Part shown: piece after piece, positions 219-39,832 of the stretch | Layout: each line of letters opens with the position of its first letter | Position numbering within the stretch: the first letter of the stretch is position 1 | DNA from: Micromonospora sp. WMMA1947 | Lineage (GTDB): Bacteria > Actinomycetota > Actinomycetes > Mycobacteriales > Micromonosporaceae | Reading direction: 5' to 3' | Assembly: GCF_027497355.1 (NCBI RefSeq) | Contig: NZ_CP114909.1 | Coordinates: 682,001 to 746,000 of the forward strand | DNA: 64,000 nt | Made by a program: the position numbers and the translations under genes | Notes under the pieces: model-generated | What the model was told of the DNA's origin: nothing | Databases searched by the model: none | The model's input: the letters and a program-made list of their open reading frames with translations, nothing else

Positions 219-376
219 CTACCCGAGAACCGTAGCGGTCGGCTGTGACAGCCGTCCGGCCACCCGCGCCGAGCAGGGCGAACCGGCACCAGCCGCGCCA
301 TCCGGCGGGCAGGTCCCGGCCGTGCGACGATCGCGTCGGCGGTACTGGGCGACAACGGTCGGAAGGCGGGCGGCGG

Positions 377-31030: not shown

Positions 31031-33433
31031 TCAGCCGCGTACCCACCGCTGGTTGCTGCCGCCGTTGCAGGTCCAGATCTGCACCGCGGTGCCGTTGGTG
31101 GTGCCCTGCCCGTTGACGTCCAGGCAGAGACCCGAGCCGACGCCGACGATGGTGCCGTCGGCGTTGATCCGCCACTGCTGGTTGCTGCCGCCGTTGCAGG
31201 TCATGATCCGCGCGCGGCTGCCGGACGTGGTGCCCGGGACGTCGAGGCACTTGTTGCCGTACACGGTGAGCTGGTTGTTCGTGCCGACCGTCCACTGCTG
31301 GTTGGGCCCACCGTTGCAGTCCCAGATCTGCACGACCGCGCCGTCGGCCTGGCTGGCGCCGTTGACGTCGAGGCAGCGGTTGGCGCTCGCGCTGCGCACC
31401 TCTCCGGTCGGGCCGCTGGAACCGTCGCCCGGCGTGATCGCGAGGTTGTCGAACTGGGCGGTGACGCCCTGGCCGGTGCCGTACCCGATCTGGCCGGCCA
31501 CCCAGGCGGAGTCCGACACGGTGCCGACTGTGGTGCCGTCGATCGCCGCGGTGAGGGTGCTGCCATTGAGCTTCAACGAAAGGTTGTGCCAGCGTCCGGT
31601 ACCCAGCGCCGCGGTGTTGCCGCTGGCCAGGGTGCGCCAGTTGCCGCTGGTGTTGTTGCTCCGGATCGACCAGGCGCCGCCGTCGGTGACCCGGAAGTAG
31701 TAGCCGTTGAGGTTCTGCGGGCCCTGGTGGTTGTAGGTGTTGCCGCGGCCGATGAGCTGGGCGTAGCCGGACTTCTCCAGCAGCACGTCCGAGGAGACCG
31801 TGTAGTTGCGCCAGGTCAGATCGCCCAGCAGGGCGTACGGTTCGGCCTGGCCGGACGTCCAGTAGATCGGCGCCTGCTCGGACATCTGGCGGACGCACTG
31901 TCCGGTCCGGCCGCCACCGCAGCCGACGATCTCGAACGAGCCCTGCTGGTCCATCAGGTACCGGGCTTCGCGCCCGGTGGCGTAGCTGTCGAAGTTGTCG
32001 CGGTACGGCAGATCCAGGGTGCCCTGGACCGGACTGACAGCCGTGCCTTTCCCCTGCCCACTCGTGGTGGTGATGCTGTAGACGTAGCCGGGTTGGACGG
32101 TGAGCGAGAAGCGTCCGCCGTTCGGTGTGATGTCGGCGCCCCGGACGAAGTGCTCGGCGCTGTTGTTGGACCTGAGGTTCGTCGCCCACACGCGCACCGT
32201 GCCGGCGGAGAGCCCGCCGGTGACGGTGACGTCGAGCTGCTGGGCCGAGCCGGCGTCCTGCGTCTCGATGACGGTGCTCCAGTCGCTGTTGTTCGTGGAC
32301 TTCAGCGAGACATAGCTGCCGTTGCCGCGGTTGCCCCCGAGGTAGCCGCTGGACGAGTCGAGATAGCGCCAGCCCGGCGCCGTGAACTGGGTGGTGTGCG
32401 CCATCACCCAGGTGCTCCTGCCGATCGAGTAGGCGCCGGACCACGGCTGCTGCGCCACCGCCACGCCGGTGGTCGCCCAGGGGATGTTGGGGGTGATGGC
32501 GGCGATCACCGGCCAGTTGATGTACCCGGTCATCTTGCCGTCGAGGTAGCCGCGGTTGATGCCCCGGGCGAGGGCCGGCGCGCCGGCGTTGTAGTCGTCG
32601 GAGCCGTTCTCACTGGCCCACAGCTGCTTGCCGGTGGAGATCGCGTTGGCGGAGCTGGGGCAGCTGGTCTGGGCGCTGCGGTAGCCGCAGACGTAGTGGC
32701 TGCCGAAGACCTGCACCGCGTTGGCGAACGCCGGGTCCCGCAGCGAGTCGTCGGCGGCGCCCCACCCGAAGTCGTCCGAGGCGACGATCTTCACATTGCC
32801 GTAGCCGCGGGAGTCGAGTGTGGAGCGCAGGTTCTTGTACCAGGTGGTGTTGTAGCCCTTCTCGTTCCACCCGCCGAGGTAGTTGATGGTCAGTCCGTGC
32901 GTCGCCGCGCAGTCCAGCCACCCGACGAGGTAGTTGATCGAGTCGGTGGACCAGAAGTTGCCGTTGCCGATCCAGCCGGGTGCCCCCCAGGCCAGACCGA
33001 CCAGGGCGATGGAGGGGTTCCGCGCCCGCGCCTGCTCCATCAGCCACCACTCGTAGCCCCGGTTGCAGTTCACGCTGCCCCGGGTGTGCTCGTGGCTGGG
33101 CTCGGCGCCGGAGGTGGAGTTGGTGTCGCCGCCGATCTCCACCTTCATCAGTTGCATCGCGGCGCCGTAACCCGGCTTGAACAGGTAGTCGAGGATGTCG
33201 CTGCGCTGCGGCTCCGGGTAGTCGATCAGGAGTCTGCTGTTTCCGCCGCCGCCGCTGACCGCGCCGACCCCGTCGAGCACGCGCCCGCCGGAGGCGCCGT
33301 TGACGGTGAGGGCGGTCGCCGCCCGGGCCGGCGCGGCGGGGACGGTCAGCGCGAACGCCGTCACCATCGCGGCCACCGCCGCCGACGCCATCCGGCGCCA
33401 CGCCGCATGTTCTCCGCTCACCCTGCTGGACAC
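31031..33433 (-). CDS. Secreted GH59 beta-galactosidase (galactocerebrosidase-like) with ricin-type lectin tail
   Basis: 800 residues. Signal peptide about 1-38 (AWRRMASAAVAAMVTAFALT, cleavage after ARA), GH59 barrel with acid/base Glu191 in YLGGWNEKGYN and nucleophile Glu275 in LWASENGSDD, a beta-sandwich, a galactosidase-associated lectin-like region (LPYRDNFDSYATGREARYL), and a C-terminal ricin-type beta-trefoil (about 675-800) with three QxW repeats (NQQWTV, NQQWRI, NQRWV). GH59 enzymes remove beta-galactose from glycolipids or plant arabinogalactan. GTG 33433 has GGAGG seven bases upstream. A palindromic operator sits just before the ribosome binding site. No sugar transporter is beside it. 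Confidence 0.87.
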   Translation of the reverse strand: MSSRVSGEHAAWRRMASAAVAAMVTAFALTVPAAPARAATALTVNGASGGRVLDGVGAVSGGGGNSRLLIDYPEPQRSDILDYLFKPGYGAAMQLMKVEIGGDTNSTSGAEPSHEHTRGSVNCNRGYEWWLMEQARARNPSIALVGLAWGAPGWIGNGNFWSTDSINYLVGWLDCAATHGLTINYLGGWNEKGYNTTWYKNLRSTLDSRGYGNVKIVASDDFGWGAADDSLRDPAFANAVQVFGSHYVCGYRSAQTSCPSSANAISTGKQLWASENGSDDYNAGAPALARGINRGYLDGKMTGYINWPVIAAITPNIPWATTGVAVAQQPWSGAYSIGRSTWVMAHTTQFTAPGWRYLDSSSGYLGGNRGNGSYVSLKSTNNSDWSTVIETQDAGSAQQLDVTVTGGLSAGTVRVWATNLRSNNSAEHFVRGADITPNGGRFSLTVQPGYVYSITTTSGQGKGTAVSPVQGTLDLPYRDNFDSYATGREARYLMDQQGSFEIVGCGGGRTGQCVRQMSEQAPIYWTSGQAEPYALLGDLTWRNYTVSSDVLLEKSGYAQLIGRGNTYNHQGPQNLNGYYFRVTDGGAWSIRSNNTSGNWRTLASGNTAALGTGRWHNLSLKLNGSTLTAAIDGTTVGTVSDSAWVAGQIGYGTGQGVTAQFDNLAITPGDGSSGPTGEVRSASANRCLDVNGASQADGAVVQIWDCNGGPNQQWTVGTNNQLTVYGNKCLDVPGTTSGSRARIMTCNGGSNQQWRINADGTIVGVGSGLCLDVNGQGTTNGTAVQIWTCNGGSNQRWVRG

Positions 33434-33446
33434 CGACCCACCTCCA

Positions 33447-33464
33447 GATAGACATGTGTCTATC
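33447..33464. promoter_or_regulatory. GATAGACA-TG-TGTCTATC operator
   Basis: GATAGACATGTGTCTATC has 8-bp perfect arms around TG and lies 14 bp before the GTG of the GH59 gene, in a locally AT-rich patch. Its size and place suit a LacI- or GntR-type repressor; no such regulator gene is adjacent, so it would act from elsewhere. Confidence 0.6.
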
Positions 33465-33556
33465 AAATTTCCTGCATGTTAGCGTTCACACCACAGGTTG
33501 GTCAACGCCTCGCCGGCCCGAGCCCCACCCCACCGAACGCCGCTCGCGAGCGCGGG

Positions 33557-35277: not shown

Positions 35278-37932
35278 TCACAGCTGGCGCAGGATCACCG
35301 GATCCTTGATCTTCTTGTCCGCGGCCAGCAGCAACGCCTTGCTGATGATCTCGCCGAGCCGGCTGTCGCCCTCGAAGGGCAGGTACATCTCCGGCTCCTT
35401 CGCCTTCGCCGAGTCCGGGATGACGCACAGGTACCGCTCGTCCGGCGCGATCAGGATGTTGCCCGAGCCGCAGTGGATGCGGTACGTGTGCAGGTCGCCG
35501 CGTACCTCCAGGAACCTGTCGGTGAGCGTGCAGCGACCGGCGATCGCCAGCCGGGGGATCAGGTCCGCCAGCACGTCCCGGCGCGTCCGGCCGGTCGGGG
35601 TCAGCTCGCCGAAGCTGTTCTGCGCCCAGTAGTCGCGATACCGGCCCTCCGGCCCGCCGTCGTACCAGTTCGGGTCGGCGCCCACCCCGGCGGCGGCCAC
35701 GAACAGGTCGACGTCCCGCATCACCTCGCTCAGCACGACCGGCGGAACCTGCGCCAACGGGACCGGCAGGCGCTCGCCCCGGATGAAGAACAGCTGATCG
35801 GTTCCCATCGTGTCGAACACGAGGTCGTCGTCCCGGTCCTCGATCCCGGCGACACCCAGTTCGGCGCGCAGCCCCCAGTCCGGGAGGGCCAGCCAGGGCA
35901 GGTTGTAGGACGCCCCGTCGTTGCGGTGCTGGACGTACGACCAGCCGCGCCGGGACAGCAGCGCGTTGAGCCGGTGCTGACGCACGATGTGCGCGGCGAA
36001 CCGGTTGGAGTACACGCCAGTGGCCCGCTCCGCGTCGGTGAGCAGGTACTGCTCCCGGTGCGCCTGCTTGAACGGCTGGGTGATCGCGTGCCGGGTGAGG
36101 AAGTCCCGCCACGGCCCCACCGCTTCGGGGTCGAGCACCGGATGCCACAACCGGACCGTCGCGTCGTCGGCCGGCTCGAACACGGTGTCGTCCACTGTGC
36201 GCAGCGTCTCACCGGCCCAGCAGCAGGCCACGCCGTCGACGGTCCAGACGAGCCGGCGGGCCAGGGTACGGGCCAGCGGGTGGTCGAGGAACCGTTCGCG
36301 CCACTGCTCGACGGTCCACGAACGGTCCCGTCGCAGCAGCCCTTCCAGCCGGTCGCGGGTGGCGACGAGCGTCGCGGCGACGTCGACGACGGTCGCCTTC
36401 AGCTCCTTCACCTCGTCGCCATGCTCGCTGCGCACCTGCGCCGGTGGGGCCTTGACCACCTTGCCGTCCGCGTTGCGCCACACCACTACGGCGTCGACAC
36501 CGCGCACCTCCAGCTCGTACGAGCAGTCGCCCAGCTTGTCCGCGAGCGGCAGCCCGAAGCCGGGCAGAGCCATCTCCTCGACGTCCTCCCGGCTGACGCC
36601 GCGCGCCTCGGCGTGCCGGGTCAGCCCCTTCTCCACCAGGCGCAGGGTGCTCTTGTAGGTCAGCCGCGAGGACAGCCGCGCCAGCTGGGCGAGCGCGGCC
36701 GGGTGATCGGTGTCGACGAGCGCCGCGACCGCGACGTTCGCCAGTTTCGGGCTCGCCGGGCCGTGGCCGGAGATCTTGCGGGCGGCCCGTTCCGCGATCT
36801 GGCCGAGGTTGCGCAGTGTCTGCTCGGACGGCGGGCACATCGTCCGCGTCCAGATCAGTCCCCACAGCAGCCCGACGTTGTAGCGGTCGATCATCCGTGG
36901 TGGCATGTCCTTGATGTGGCCGGGGCAGCACGTTGTCATGCGCAGCGGCAGGCTGCGCGCCTGGCCGACGAGCGGGAGCCAGTCGTCGAGCCGGGCGGTG
37001 AAAGCGTCGACGCCCACCGCGTCGAGCAGCGACCGGGCCTGCTTGCGCCAACCGGCCGTCGGCTTCGCCTTGTCCACCTCGACCGGGCAGTGCGCCAGCA
37101 GCGCCTCCCACGCGGACCGGCGATCCGCCGGCATCGCCTCGATGTCCGCGACGGCGCGGTCGGCCCACTGCTCACCGACGTTGGGGATCGGCCACATCCG
37201 GTCGGCCTCGTCGCTGAAGTCGCTCGGCGATTGCTCGATCCCGGTCCGGCGCCAGGTCGCCAGCGCCGCCGGGTTCACGCGCCCGGCCGAGGCCTCCGCC
37301 TGGAGGGACTCCCAGGTGAACCGCTTGAGATGGGAGCTCCAGTAATTGAATCCCAGCCAGGCGTGGGTGCTCAGCCGGCCGAGCCAGGCCGAGCCGTCGA
37401 GCCCGCCGCCGGAACGCACGGCACGGATCAGCGTGGCCCACCCGTCCTTGCCCGAGCCCGGCACGGTCAGCGCATCGAACACCACCTGCCGTACCGGCGC
37501 CGGTTGTGCGGCCAGGAGTTCCTTCGTGCGGCGCCACGCCTCACCCCGGGCCCGGTCCCGCGGGTCCTCGTGCGCGTACGGCAGCGACGGCAGGTGGTCG
37601 ATCAGTGTCGACGCAGCGGTGACTCGGCGGTCGTGATCCGCGTCGTCACCGGCCAGGTCGGCCACGGCTGCGGCGACCGTCTGCGCCTGTCGGTTCGCCT
37701 CCGGTAGCAGCTCGACCAGCGGCGGAGCGAGATCGTACGGCCCGTGCGGATCGTTCAGTGCGGCGAGCAGCGACGGAACCGTCGCCGCCGGCGCCCAGCC
37801 GCACACGGTCACCACCAGGCTGATGGATTCCCGCTGACTGGGCTCGTTGAGGGTCTGGCCGCTCCGCTCGCCCCACCTCTTGACGGTGGCGACCACATCG
37901 CGCAGGGCCAACTCGGGGTCGTACGTGTCCAC
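35278..37932 (-). CDS. DUF4132 domain protein
   Basis: 884 residues. The N-terminal two-thirds is helical, HEAT-like, with many Trp-anchored helices (AWLGFNYWSSHLKRF); the C-terminal third is the DUF4132 region: RLVWTVDGVACCW, DWGLRAELGVAGIEDRDDDL, and the closing segment THE-like YRIHCGSGNILIAPDERYLC. Relatives (MolR-type proteins) occur in bacterial molybdate and conflict-related loci, but no activity is established. GTG 37932 begins on the base after the TGA of the upstream 102-residue gene, so translation is coupled with zero gap. The small protein and this large one are therefore probably partners. Confidence 0.85.
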   Translation of the reverse strand: MDTYDPELALRDVVATVKRWGERSGQTLNEPSQRESISLVVTVCGWAPAATVPSLLAALNDPHGPYDLAPPLVELLPEANRQAQTVAAAVADLAGDDADHDRRVTAASTLIDHLPSLPYAHEDPRDRARGEAWRRTKELLAAQPAPVRQVVFDALTVPGSGKDGWATLIRAVRSGGGLDGSAWLGRLSTHAWLGFNYWSSHLKRFTWESLQAEASAGRVNPAALATWRRTGIEQSPSDFSDEADRMWPIPNVGEQWADRAVADIEAMPADRRSAWEALLAHCPVEVDKAKPTAGWRKQARSLLDAVGVDAFTARLDDWLPLVGQARSLPLRMTTCCPGHIKDMPPRMIDRYNVGLLWGLIWTRTMCPPSEQTLRNLGQIAERAARKISGHGPASPKLANVAVAALVDTDHPAALAQLARLSSRLTYKSTLRLVEKGLTRHAEARGVSREDVEEMALPGFGLPLADKLGDCSYELEVRGVDAVVVWRNADGKVVKAPPAQVRSEHGDEVKELKATVVDVAATLVATRDRLEGLLRRDRSWTVEQWRERFLDHPLARTLARRLVWTVDGVACCWAGETLRTVDDTVFEPADDATVRLWHPVLDPEAVGPWRDFLTRHAITQPFKQAHREQYLLTDAERATGVYSNRFAAHIVRQHRLNALLSRRGWSYVQHRNDGASYNLPWLALPDWGLRAELGVAGIEDRDDDLVFDTMGTDQLFFIRGERLPVPLAQVPPVVLSEVMRDVDLFVAAAGVGADPNWYDGGPEGRYRDYWAQNSFGELTPTGRTRRDVLADLIPRLAIAGRCTLTDRFLEVRGDLHTYRIHCGSGNILIAPDERYLCVIPDSAKAKEPEMYLPFEGDSRLGEIISKALLLAADKKIKDPVILRQL

Positions 37933-38241
37933 TCAGCCACCCACCAGCGGGACGAGCTTGAGGAAGGTGACGCGGGATCCCGCGTGCAGGCGGACCTTCT
38001 CGTCCAGGGCGGTGACCTGACGGTCGTCGACGAGCACCACGAAGGCGTTGCGGCCGAACGCGTCGAGTGTCATCCGCGTCCGCTCCTCCGGGTCGGCGTC
38101 CACGCCGGACTCGGCGATCTCGAGGGAGACCCGACGGCGGATCAGCTCGGCGAGAGGCAGTGCCTCCTCGAAGACCTCGACTGTCCACACAGGCCCGTTC
38201 GGCGCACCGACGACCTCGTCGGTGACTGTGATCAATGGCAT
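37933..38241 (-). CDS. Small GG-ended beta-grasp-like protein, partner of DUF4132
   Basis: 102 residues. Predicted order is strand (PLITVTDEVV), strand and helix (WTVEVFEEALPLAELIRRRV), linker helix, then paired strands AFVVLVDDRQVT and the closing segment LHAGSRVTFLKLVPLVGG. Order, spacing and the final Gly101-Gly102 match MoaD/ThiS and ubiquitin-like beta-grasp proteins, which are activated at a C-terminal Gly. This match is by eye, not by search. ATG 38241 has TACCTT seven bases upstream (leaderless layout); GTG 38271 is an alternative. The stop abuts the DUF4132 start. No E1-like, JAB or molybdopterin gene is nearby. Confidence 0.7.
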   Translation of the reverse strand: MPLITVTDEVVGAPNGPVWTVEVFEEALPLAELIRRRVSLEIAESGVDADPEERTRMTLDAFGRNAFVVLVDDRQVTALDEKVRLHAGSRVTFLKLVPLVGG

Positions 38242-38248
38242 GGCGGAG

Positions 38249-38254
38249 AAGGTA
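38249..38254 (-). promoter_or_regulatory. Putative leaderless -10 element (beta-grasp/DUF4132 operon)
   Basis: TACCTT (TAnnnT), seven bases before ATG 38241. The gap to the divergent sigma-CAP gene is 106 bp, so both promoters lie within it. Confidence 0.45.
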
Positions 38255-38347
38255 ACGGTTCCCTCCGACACCTCAGCATTTTGTGTGACCTGACCGCGTG
38301 CCGGACAGTCTCCACCGTGTACGAGATCGTTCCGTGAAGGCGAGGTT

Positions 38348-39832
38348 GTGAGCGTGTCCTATCCCGCGTACCCGAGCAGGGCCGGCATGTCGGCGGTGGT
38401 GGACGCGGCACGCCGCGGCGACCGCGCGGCGATGGACGAGCTGGTCTCGCACTGTCTGCCGCTGGTCTACAACATCGTGGGCCGGGCCCTGAACCGGTCG
38501 GCAGACGTCGACGACGTGGTGCAGAACACGATGCTGAGCGTCGTCCGCGGGCTGCCGGGCGTACGCGAGCCGCAGCTTTTCCGCTCGTGGCTGGTCGCCG
38601 TCACCATGAACGAGATCCGCACCCACACGCAGCGCCGGCACACCACACCGGCGCCGCCGGAGGACATCGACAACGTGATCGACCCGCGCGCGGACTTCGA
38701 GGACCTGACCCTGACCCAGCTCCGCCTCGCCGACCAGCGCCGGGAGGTCGTCCTGGCCACGCGCTGGCTGGACGACGACCACCGCCACCTGCTGTCCCTC
38801 TGGTGGCTGGTCGAGGCCGGTCACCTCAGCCGCGCCGACCTGGTCGACGCCCTGAAGCTGGCCCCGCACCACGTGACCGTGCGGGTGTCCCGGATGAAGG
38901 CGCAGCTGGACACCGCCCGGCTGGTCGTACGGGCCCTCACCGCCCGGCCCGGTTGCGCCGGCCTGCGCGACACCGCGTCGGGCTGGAACGGTCAGCCGAC
39001 ACCGGTGTGGCGCAAGCGGTTCGCCCGCCACATCCGGGACTGCCCGCACTGCCCGACGAACGACCTGGTCCCCGCCGAGCGGCTGCTGGCCGGCCTGGCG
39101 CTCACCCCGATCCCGGCCGATCTCGCCTCGGACGTCACGCACCACCTGCGCACCGTCGCCTCGCCGACGCACGCCGTCCCGCCCGGCGCGCAGGTCGTGA
39201 GCGCCGGGGCGCGGTCGACGCTCTCCCTGTCCAAGACCCTGGTCGGCGTGGTCGCCGCCGTCGCCGTGCTCGGCGGGGGTGGTCTGATCCTTGCCAACTA
39301 CCCGAGCGGGTCGAAGCAGCAGCCGACAAGCGTGGCAGCCTCGCAGCCCGCGACCGAGACCACCGCTCCCGCGCTCACGCCCACCCCGACCCCGCTCGCA
39401 CCCTCCCCGACCGCTGCCCGTCCGAGCCCCGCCAAGTCGGTGAAGCCCTCGAAGTCACCGAAGCCGACCCCGTCGCCGGCCAGGTCCACCGCCACGTCCA
39501 GCGGCTTGTCCGCCGCGGAACGGCGGCTGCTGGTGCTGCTCAACGAGCGGCGTCGCGCGCTCGGGCTGACCGAGGTCAAGCTCGGTACGGCCCAGCACCG
39601 GGAGGCGGAGTCCTGCGTACGGCAGAACCTGAACGCGAGCGGCCTGCAGCACTGCGGGCACGAGGTGCTGTTCGCCTCGTCGGGCAACTCCTCGCCGGAG
39701 CAGATGATCGAGGCGTGGTTCAACAGCCCCGGGCACAAGACGGCGCTGACGTACGCCAGCTCTCGCTTCGCCGGACCAGCGATCGTGTTCAACGGCAGCC
39801 GGCAGGTCGCCGCCATCAACATCGACTACTGA
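38348..39832 (+). CDS. ECF sigma factor fused to ZAS motif, membrane span and CAP domain
   Basis: 494 residues. Sigma region 2 (about 15-98; NRSADVDDVVQNTMLSVVRG) and region 4-like helices (about 128-195; VDALKLAPHHVTVRVSRMKA) are followed by a Cys/His segment with H228-x3-C232-x2-C235 (HIRDCPHC), as in zinc anti-sigma domains, plus Cys203. Then one membrane span (about 297-317), a Pro/Ser/Thr linker (about 323-385) and an outside CAP/SCP domain (about 388-494; LVLLNERRRALGLTEVKL, MIEAWFNSPGHKTAL). So sigma, anti-sigma motif and sensor lie in one chain. GTG 38348 has AAGGCGAGG upstream. Confidence 0.82.
   Translation: MSVSYPAYPSRAGMSAVVDAARRGDRAAMDELVSHCLPLVYNIVGRALNRSADVDDVVQNTMLSVVRGLPGVREPQLFRSWLVAVTMNEIRTHTQRRHTTPAPPEDIDNVIDPRADFEDLTLTQLRLADQRREVVLATRWLDDDHRHLLSLWWLVEAGHLSRADLVDALKLAPHHVTVRVSRMKAQLDTARLVVRALTARPGCAGLRDTASGWNGQPTPVWRKRFARHIRDCPHCPTNDLVPAERLLAGLALTPIPADLASDVTHHLRTVASPTHAVPPGAQVVSAGARSTLSLSKTLVGVVAAVAVLGGGGLILANYPSGSKQQPTSVAASQPATETTAPALTPTPTPLAPSPTAARPSPAKSVKPSKSPKPTPSPARSTATSSGLSAAERRLLVLLNERRRALGLTEVKLGTAQHREAESCVRQNLNASGLQHCGHEVLFASSGNSSPEQMIEAWFNSPGHKTALTYASSRFAGPAIVFNGSRQVAAINIDY

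Follow-up and report, generated by a model that had tools for sequence, protein, structure and literature searches.

A diglycine-ended beta-grasp protein encoded with DUF4132: a candidate DNA-damage module in Micromonospora

The 64,000-nucleotide stretch of Micromonospora sp. WMMA1947 analysed here (contig NZ_CP114909.1, positions 682001-746000; the window) lies in a genome of 6.31 Mb and encodes, on its minus strand, a 102-residue protein that ends in two glycines (GG), followed without a gap by an 884-residue DUF4132 protein. We give about even credence to the view that the pair is a DNA-damage module, in which the free diglycine tail, probably activated by a housekeeping E1 enzyme, works with DUF4132. 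The basis of this view is the fold model, the conserved GG, the pairing of the genes and a promoter motif, all obtained by sequence analysis. We know of no activity for DUF4132.

37933..38241, minus strand: GG-ended protein with a predicted beta-grasp fold, 102 aa, stop codon included; ATG start, ends FLKLVPLVGG
37936..37941, minus strand: codons for the terminal glycines Gly101 and Gly102; GG kept in 80/80 loci
35278..37932, minus strand: DUF4132/DUF7737 partner, 884 aa; GTG start right behind the TGA of the small gene
36568..37932, minus strand: partner residues 1-455, predicted to be almost wholly helical, with HEAT/ARM-like repeats (AlphaFold2, Foldseek)
35941..36465, minus strand: DUF4132 domain, partner residues 490-664 (Pfam match)
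35281..35589, minus strand: DUF7737 domain, partner residues 782-884 (Pfam match)
38249..38270, minus strand: PafBC/P1-type promoter core, TGTCGGAGGGAACCGTTACCTT; 5' end 29 nt ahead of the ATG

The small protein and its conserved tail

A first-pass annotation, made from the letters of the stretch, had read the small protein as 102 residues with two terminal glycines, its stop directly abutting the GTG of an 884-residue DUF4132 gene. Both points are borne out by the open reading frame (ORF) and its translation: on the minus strand, TGA 37933-37935 is followed with zero gap by GTG 37930-37932, and the two genes share one frame. The further statement that the two proteins must be made together stands as translational coupling, inferred from the junction, but does not extend to equal amounts.

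Structure prediction agreed with the proposed MoaD/ThiS/ubiquitin-like order of strands and helices. The AlphaFold2 model of the small protein (89 sequences; mean pLDDT 86.3, pTM 0.79) has the order E-E-E-H-H-E-E-E-E, and no fold other than beta-grasp appeared. Fold searches with the model returned MoaD-type proteins and ubiquitins as top matches, the best solved match being human MOCS2A (MoaD). From the model, we are confident in the predicted beta-grasp fold. Residues 99-102 have a pLDDT below 50, and the tail is disordered in MoaD and ubiquitin too. E1 substrates such as MoaD, ThiS, CysO and ubiquitin are characterised by a free C-terminal GG on a fold of this kind.

Sequence searches of Pfam, NCBIfam, solved structures and homologues used a query without the first Met. 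No Pfam or NCBIfam model was matched at E<=1. The cut-off of Pfam ThiS (PF02597) was not reached, with one of 89 members at E 0.014 and none of the 21 Deinococcus-type members matching. Solved structures gave only weak, unrelated-looking matches by sequence (best E 0.043) and none with profiles. Some databases still label homologues as MoaD/ThiS family, and the exposed C-terminal GG by which that family is recognized is seen in the model and the conserved tail. The protein resembles MoaD/MOCS2A in its beta-grasp fold, in its flexible GG tail of the P-x-x-G-G type and in the position of its gene beside that of a larger partner. On the other hand, it differs from them in lacking a ThiS match over the cut-off, in that many homologues are ~130 aa long and carry an insert, and in that its partner is DUF4132 rather than MoaE, behind a DNA-damage promoter. 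The three ThiS-family matches of the genome all lie outside the window; its own ThiS-family protein L005 ends LPPFAGG.

Conservation was assessed in the best 80 of 172 actinobacterial loci from a small-protein scan of named genomes. In all 80, the small ORF ends GG before TGA with no C-terminal fusion or extension, and a same-strand DUF4132 homologue lies just downstream; the conserved GG and DUF4132 neighbour that would be expected were thus both found, and no GG-less or extended homologue stood beside DUF4132 there. Measured from the end of the stop codon, the partner starts at -1 (TGATG) in 53 loci, -4 in ten, +2 in seven, -8 in three, +1 in two, and 0, 5 and 6 in one each. For the last two loci, apparent offsets of 216 (L034) and 535 (L045) were computed, although both junctions read TGATG. 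A chance GG or a mis-called ORF is ruled out by the 80/80 retention. The idea of tandem small-gene copies was dropped as well: single linkage had inflated the number of small ORFs to 94, against 80 found. Homologues of the small protein at E<=0.001 number 1047; among the 120 listed, 117 end in GG, and the remaining three are a protein with an SG end, one whose end is frameshifted and a fragment. The nearest named homologues among the matches listed are from Micromonospora chalcea and M. tulbaghiae. All four Gly codons are used at both GG positions, with GGT (65/80) and GGC (68/80) favoured, which argues for selection on the protein and, perhaps, on the translation start of the gene that follows.

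When the neighbours in the 80 loci were clustered, no third partner stood out; the three largest clusters (80, 75 and 57 loci) have positions that overlap the DUF4132 gene, and the next ones cover 34-35 loci. A defence system was considered and rejected, as PADLOC gave nothing convincing (best Csm2 E 0.02 and OloA E 0.32, both on relatives).

A DNA-damage promoter motif and a Deinococcus counterpart

The consensus tTGTCRgtg-8 nt-TannnT is described for PafBC (P1/RecA-NDp) promoters, on which PafBC acts (passages of PMC5656591). The spacing of the candidate core at 38249..38270 would suit a leaderless message. The relaxed form TGTC[AG]-N11-TA-N3-T occurs upstream of the small gene in 76/81 cases (the 80 loci and the window), 28-30 nt ahead of the start codon in 75 of them and 34 nt ahead in one; related loci are not independent events in these counts. 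The strict form TTGTC[AG]GTG-N8-TANNNT occurs in 39/81, and the window copy has the core form rather than the full strict form. For the relaxed form, shuffles gave a mean of 0.06 and a maximum of 1, and the opposite strand gave 0; upstream of other ORFs of >=300 aa in the same loci, it was found in 2/1411 and the strict form in none. The five loci without the relaxed motif are at one mismatch (two loci) or two mismatches (three loci). Two simple LexA box patterns were found upstream of 0/80 actinobacterial pairs.

In the whole genome, the relaxed motif occurs 66 times and the reversed pattern 20 times. We viewed 30 of the 66 sites and scanned 13 downstream genes, picked by eye, with Pfam. Six are of repair type (recA, a LigD polymerase domain, an AlkZ-like glycosylase, an NAD ligase, a methyladenine glycosylase and an RNase_T/GIY-YIG nuclease), and the other seven are a WGR protein, a WYL regulator, a FakA-like protein, DUF4240, a glutamine amidotransferase, an AAA protein and an HTH protein. 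This genome's other DUF4132 gene, which encodes a 1224-aa WGR-DUF4132 protein, has the motif 54 nt before its start (L118:2781-2802, plus strand), and the WGR-DUF4132 gene of G123, a genome of the same class, has the strict motif 77 nt before its start; these are the two actinobacterial WGR-DUF4132 genes examined for it. The GG loci of G123, G162, G172 and G222 carry the motif, whereas the DUF4132-DUF7737 locus of Nonomuraea and the five GG-less homologues described below do not. Among the stretches without a pair that were fetched in the survey of this genome's own family, only L162 and L164 have it near their GG genes. Separately, the left end of the window carries a PafBC-type motif (229-250, minus strand) 56 nt before an NAD-dependent DNA ligase ORF (L136), and a WGR-domain protein of this genome with beta-propeller-type Pfam matches (L154:38-1456, minus strand) also lies behind such a motif.

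To look beyond Actinomycetota, plasmid records were searched by tblastn with DUF4132; 16 records matched, and eight regions were opened. In Novosphingobium humi, a small ORF ending LTPLKGG overlaps its 843-aa partner. In the radiation-resistant Deinococcus radiodurans, the pair drA0165-drA0166 (SEP068184) encodes a 134-aa protein ending LTALAGG and then a 1626-aa DUF5724-DUF4132-DUF7737 protein; D. ficus has the same gene layout, and its fragment P0211 ends LTALAGG. Profile comparison connects the actinobacterial, Novosphingobium and Deinococcus small-protein groups, and GG ends were found in 98/99 and 20/20 of the listed relatives of the Novosphingobium and Deinococcus proteins, respectively. 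Taken over all listed proteins, the exceptions to a GG end include two fragments or partials. Like the Micromonospora pair, drA0165-drA0166 has a homologous GG-ended small protein, encoded 2 nt ahead of a gene containing DUF4132 and DUF7737. It differs in the 1626-aa length and DUF5724 domain of the partner, and in being controlled by DdrO through the radiation/desiccation response motif (RDRM) instead of carrying a PafBC-type motif.

The damage control of the D. radiodurans operon rests on the literature. According to passages of PMC8533742, drA0165 is putatively in an operon with drA0166, has an RDRM at -83 and is strongly upregulated upon DdrO depletion, while in the wild type, though not when irrE is mutated, mitomycin C raises the DRA0166 protein. 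We find this RDRM 20-mer at L087:552-571 (plus strand), 82 nt before the small gene. The parts of PMC9650054 consulted report no RDRM and call DR_A0165 Deinococcus-only, and both statements conflict with the present sequence data. The same parts describe increased antioxidant measures upon DR_A0165 deletion, a predicted structure similar to MOCS2A and SAMP1, binding to Trx1, and 157 proteins common to all four tagged DR_A0165 pull-downs. Trx1 was set aside as a general partner: a thioredoxin gene lies upstream in D. radiodurans and is not among the genes listed beside the D. ficus pair. Genes for modA, an ABC permease, thiD and thiazole synthase (L087:6812-10915, minus strand) lie <=5 kb downstream of the D. 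radiodurans pair; since the genes listed around the D. ficus pair include neither modA nor thiD nor thiazole synthase, nothing is read into their linkage. Neither the pairing outside Deinococcus nor the PafBC link is described in the parts of the open-licence PMC literature searched. A 2006 survey of prokaryotic ubiquitin-like proteins (PMC1779556) makes no mention of MolR, DRA0165 or WGR, and a Deinococcus regulon paper (PMC5552922) makes none of DRA016 or MoaD.

Around the pair in the window, the 3' gene encodes a Na+/H+ exchanger and is convergent, and the upstream gene is divergent; the unit therefore consists of two genes. The divergent gene (38348-39832, plus strand) matches sigma-70 region 2 (Pfam E 2.3e-11) and, by eye, its product continues with a membrane segment and a CAP/SCP-like C-terminus; it is possibly a sigma factor joined to an extracellular domain. 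Farther away, 31031-33466 (minus strand) encodes a glycosyl hydrolase of family 59 (galactocerebrosidase-like) with a ricin-type lectin domain.

The extent of the pairing and the DUF4132 partner

Surveys that did not start from the pair were used to find exceptions. Among 296 Actinomycetota genomes, DUF7737 is present in eight (nine copies), and all eight have a GG gene beside one copy, the pair of G224 looking broken in a draft contig; the ninth copy (L114) is divergent to a WGR-DUF4132 gene. In five genomes, a small-protein homologue occurs without any DUF7737, and in each of them its GG tail is missing. These GG-less homologues (L108-L112) largely retain the insert FxGLVQPxDAxRxxDGxRMRxPR, though their genomes are without DUF7737. 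Among 101 genomes of the family to which this Micromonospora belongs, the GG protein occurs in 48, DUF7737 in 49 and both in 45, and DUF7737 lies <=6 kb downstream in 47/54 GG match rows, which include split matches. The exceptions in this survey vary. L160 is a GG-ended homologue close to the end of its contig, followed after 1 nt by an unrelated gene. In L161, a NADAR gene (L161:5384-6133, minus strand) lies 4 nt past the stop of a GG-ended homologue and is a possible second partner of the GG module. L162 is GG-ended with no DUF4132 found in its 12-kb stretch, L163 is a remnant, and L164 has a single terminal G in a genome without DUF7737, while L165 and L166 end in GG in genomes without DUF7737. 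Overall, the GG gene mostly adjoins DUF4132, with exceptions, and DUF4132 does not need GG.

GG proteins that precede a NADAR gene or another gene, and DUF7737 proteins that often have no GG partner, are what one would expect if the two genes were repair-regulon members sharing a promoter with no joint biochemistry, the GG being kept for some other shared use. We consider this very improbable, because the pair occurs in three phyla with tight junctions. Pairwise distances of the small protein and its partner also correlate across the 80 loci (Spearman 0.88, computed without a control gene), although vertical descent alone could yield this value.

The partner matches DUF4132 (PF13569, E 4.5e-51) and DUF7737 (PF24879, E 1.3e-36) above the curated cut-offs. 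Its AlphaFold2 model (75 of 81 sequences at hand; pLDDT 83.9, pTM 0.70) shows helical repeats to about residue 455 and then a mixed C-terminal half. Solved structures searched by sequence gave only weak helical matches (best E 0.052). A Streptomyces plasmid protein (L090:4890-5927, plus strand) matches only partner residues 130-439, and by sequence the helical part seems to exist as a stand-alone protein. The conserved core comprises His597-Pro598, Gln619-Pro620, Gln623, Arg626, Glu627, Ser735-Glu736 and Arg739-Asp740, each retained by at least five of the six unpartnered DUF4132 proteins compared. Thus, judged from these alignments, the DUF4132 reaction is probably common to the whole family, and the GG protein would be an extra input.

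DUF4132 is widely conserved in bacteria (passages of PMC8533742). The WGR-DUF4132 proteins share the DUF4132 domain with the partner and, in this genome and in G123, the same DNA-damage motif. They differ in carrying WGR N-terminally in the same chain (residues 7-67 of the 1224-aa copy) in place of a separate GG protein, and the copy in this genome is without DUF7737. We take these proteins to be of the E. coli MolR/YehI type. The link of DUF4132 to molybdate rests on an E. coli relative, and WGR is a DNA-end binder.

Activation of the tail and possible roles

Passages of PMC3227635 describe mycobacterial MoeZR as one E1 that serves several carriers. The first-pass observation that no E1 or JAB gene is near was confirmed: the window contains no match to either of these genes, which were looked for as marks of a sulfur-carrier or ubiquitin-like conjugation locus, and the ThiF matches of the genome (2604255, strong; 2898316 and 370233, both below the cut-off) and its JAB match (779666) lie outside. 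None of eight ORFs scanned around the pair is of thiamin, molybdenum cofactor or cysteine type. MoaD is used by MoaE, ThiS by ThiG and CysO by CysM, and the present pair resembles CysO-CysM-Mec and ThiS-ThiG in combining a small GG protein with a dedicated partner; it differs in that the window is free of JAB and E1 matches. The never-fused C-terminus in 80 loci despite the abutting genes, the lack of GG in five DUF7737-less genomes of one family (although L165 and L166 keep it), the E1-substrate character of the GG tail, the strong ThiF match of this genome and the MoeZR precedent together lead us to favour activation by the housekeeping E1 and use by DUF4132.

The main rival to E1 activation is a non-covalent regulator, in which the folded subunit would bind DUF4132 as a WGR-like part, its GG tail plugging a pocket or interface with no E1. 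The small protein does occupy the place of WGR in WGR-DUF4132, both kinds lie behind the same motif in this genome, and the window has no E1 or JAB match. A pure subunit should, however, tolerate fusion, and the C-terminus is unfused and unextended in 80/80 loci despite the abutting genes; moreover, the tail is disordered in the model, as it is in MoaD and ubiquitin. We judge this reading somewhat unlikely.

A third possibility, which we hold to be decidedly unlikely, is a damage-induced modifier conjugated to targets, with DUF4132 as its ligase or main target. The modelled ubiquitin-like fold with a GG tail speaks for it, and modifiers of MoaD/ThiS fold such as TtuB and SAMP exist. Cys836, invariant in 75 aligned DUF4132 sequences (of 81), could suit such a role but is also present in two of the six unpartnered proteins, and no JAB match lies within the window. 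The passages of PMC9650054 that name SAMP1 also give the 157 shared pull-down proteins; since the pull-downs included C-terminally tagged protein, which is not expected to conjugate via GG, these are no evidence of conjugation.

Several observations weigh against an E1-activated tail that works with DUF4132 under damage control. The five GG-less genomes are one family and may represent one event. Five GG-ended homologues (L160, L161, L162, L165 and L166) have no DUF4132 found beside them, and GG-keepers of the L165/L166 type mean that GG is not lost whenever DUF7737 is absent. In the own-family survey, 20/68 DUF7737 match rows (some of them fragments) have no small gene upstream, and no GG gene was seen at the Acetobacter, Nonomuraea and WGR-DUF4132 loci. 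Translation of the partner starts within an overlap with the GG codons, which favour GGT GGC, and their conservation may in part serve initiation. No partner-specific DUF4132 site was clear, the core residues being common to partnered and unpartnered copies. Foldseek with the whole partner chain gave no match at E<=0.001, helical repeats filling both lists; the C-terminal half is thus left without an assigned fold, which is no evidence of a new one. A ThiF match is present in 12/14 control genomes as well, and the presence of an E1 here therefore says little. PafBC control of the actinobacterial pair is read from the motif itself, which three partnered loci from other classes (G208, G224 and G094) lack, and simple LexA-like patterns gave nothing for Novosphingobium.

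In the module that we favour, a two-gene message would be driven by a PafBC-type promoter in Actinomycetota and by a DdrO/RDRM promoter in Deinococcus. The first gene would yield a MoaD/ubiquitin-like protein whose diglycine tail is free and flexible from birth, and the second, translationally coupled, a DUF4132 protein with a helical-repeat scaffold and a strongly conserved, probably enzymatic C-terminal half. An ordinary cellular E1 of the MoeZ/MoeB type would adenylate, and probably thiocarboxylate, the tail, which would then be used by or on DUF4132, by analogy with MoaD-MoaE, ThiS-ThiG and CysO-CysM. Here, we infer the action of PafBC, the activation by E1, the chemistry and the docking of the tail in DUF4132. 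The occurrence of WGR and NADAR as alternatives suggests a setting of DNA that is damaged or ADP-ribosylated; passages of PMC11543638 describe removal of ADP-ribose from guanine by the NADAR family. A bolder version, which we regard as rather unlikely, is a damage-induced ubiquitin-like system in which DUF4132 passes the E1-activated GG modifier, or the sulfur it carries, on to some target where DNA is damaged, WGR replacing the modifier elsewhere and NADAR pairing with it in at least one genome.

These findings tie DUF4132 to the damage response in two phyla that have unrelated DNA-damage regulators, and tie one branch of DUF4132 to a separate ubiquitin-like protein whose diglycine tail is conserved. 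DR_A0165, described as genus-specific, now has a likely partner as well as relatives in two further phyla, and the role of DUF4132 in DNA damage is now open to direct testing.

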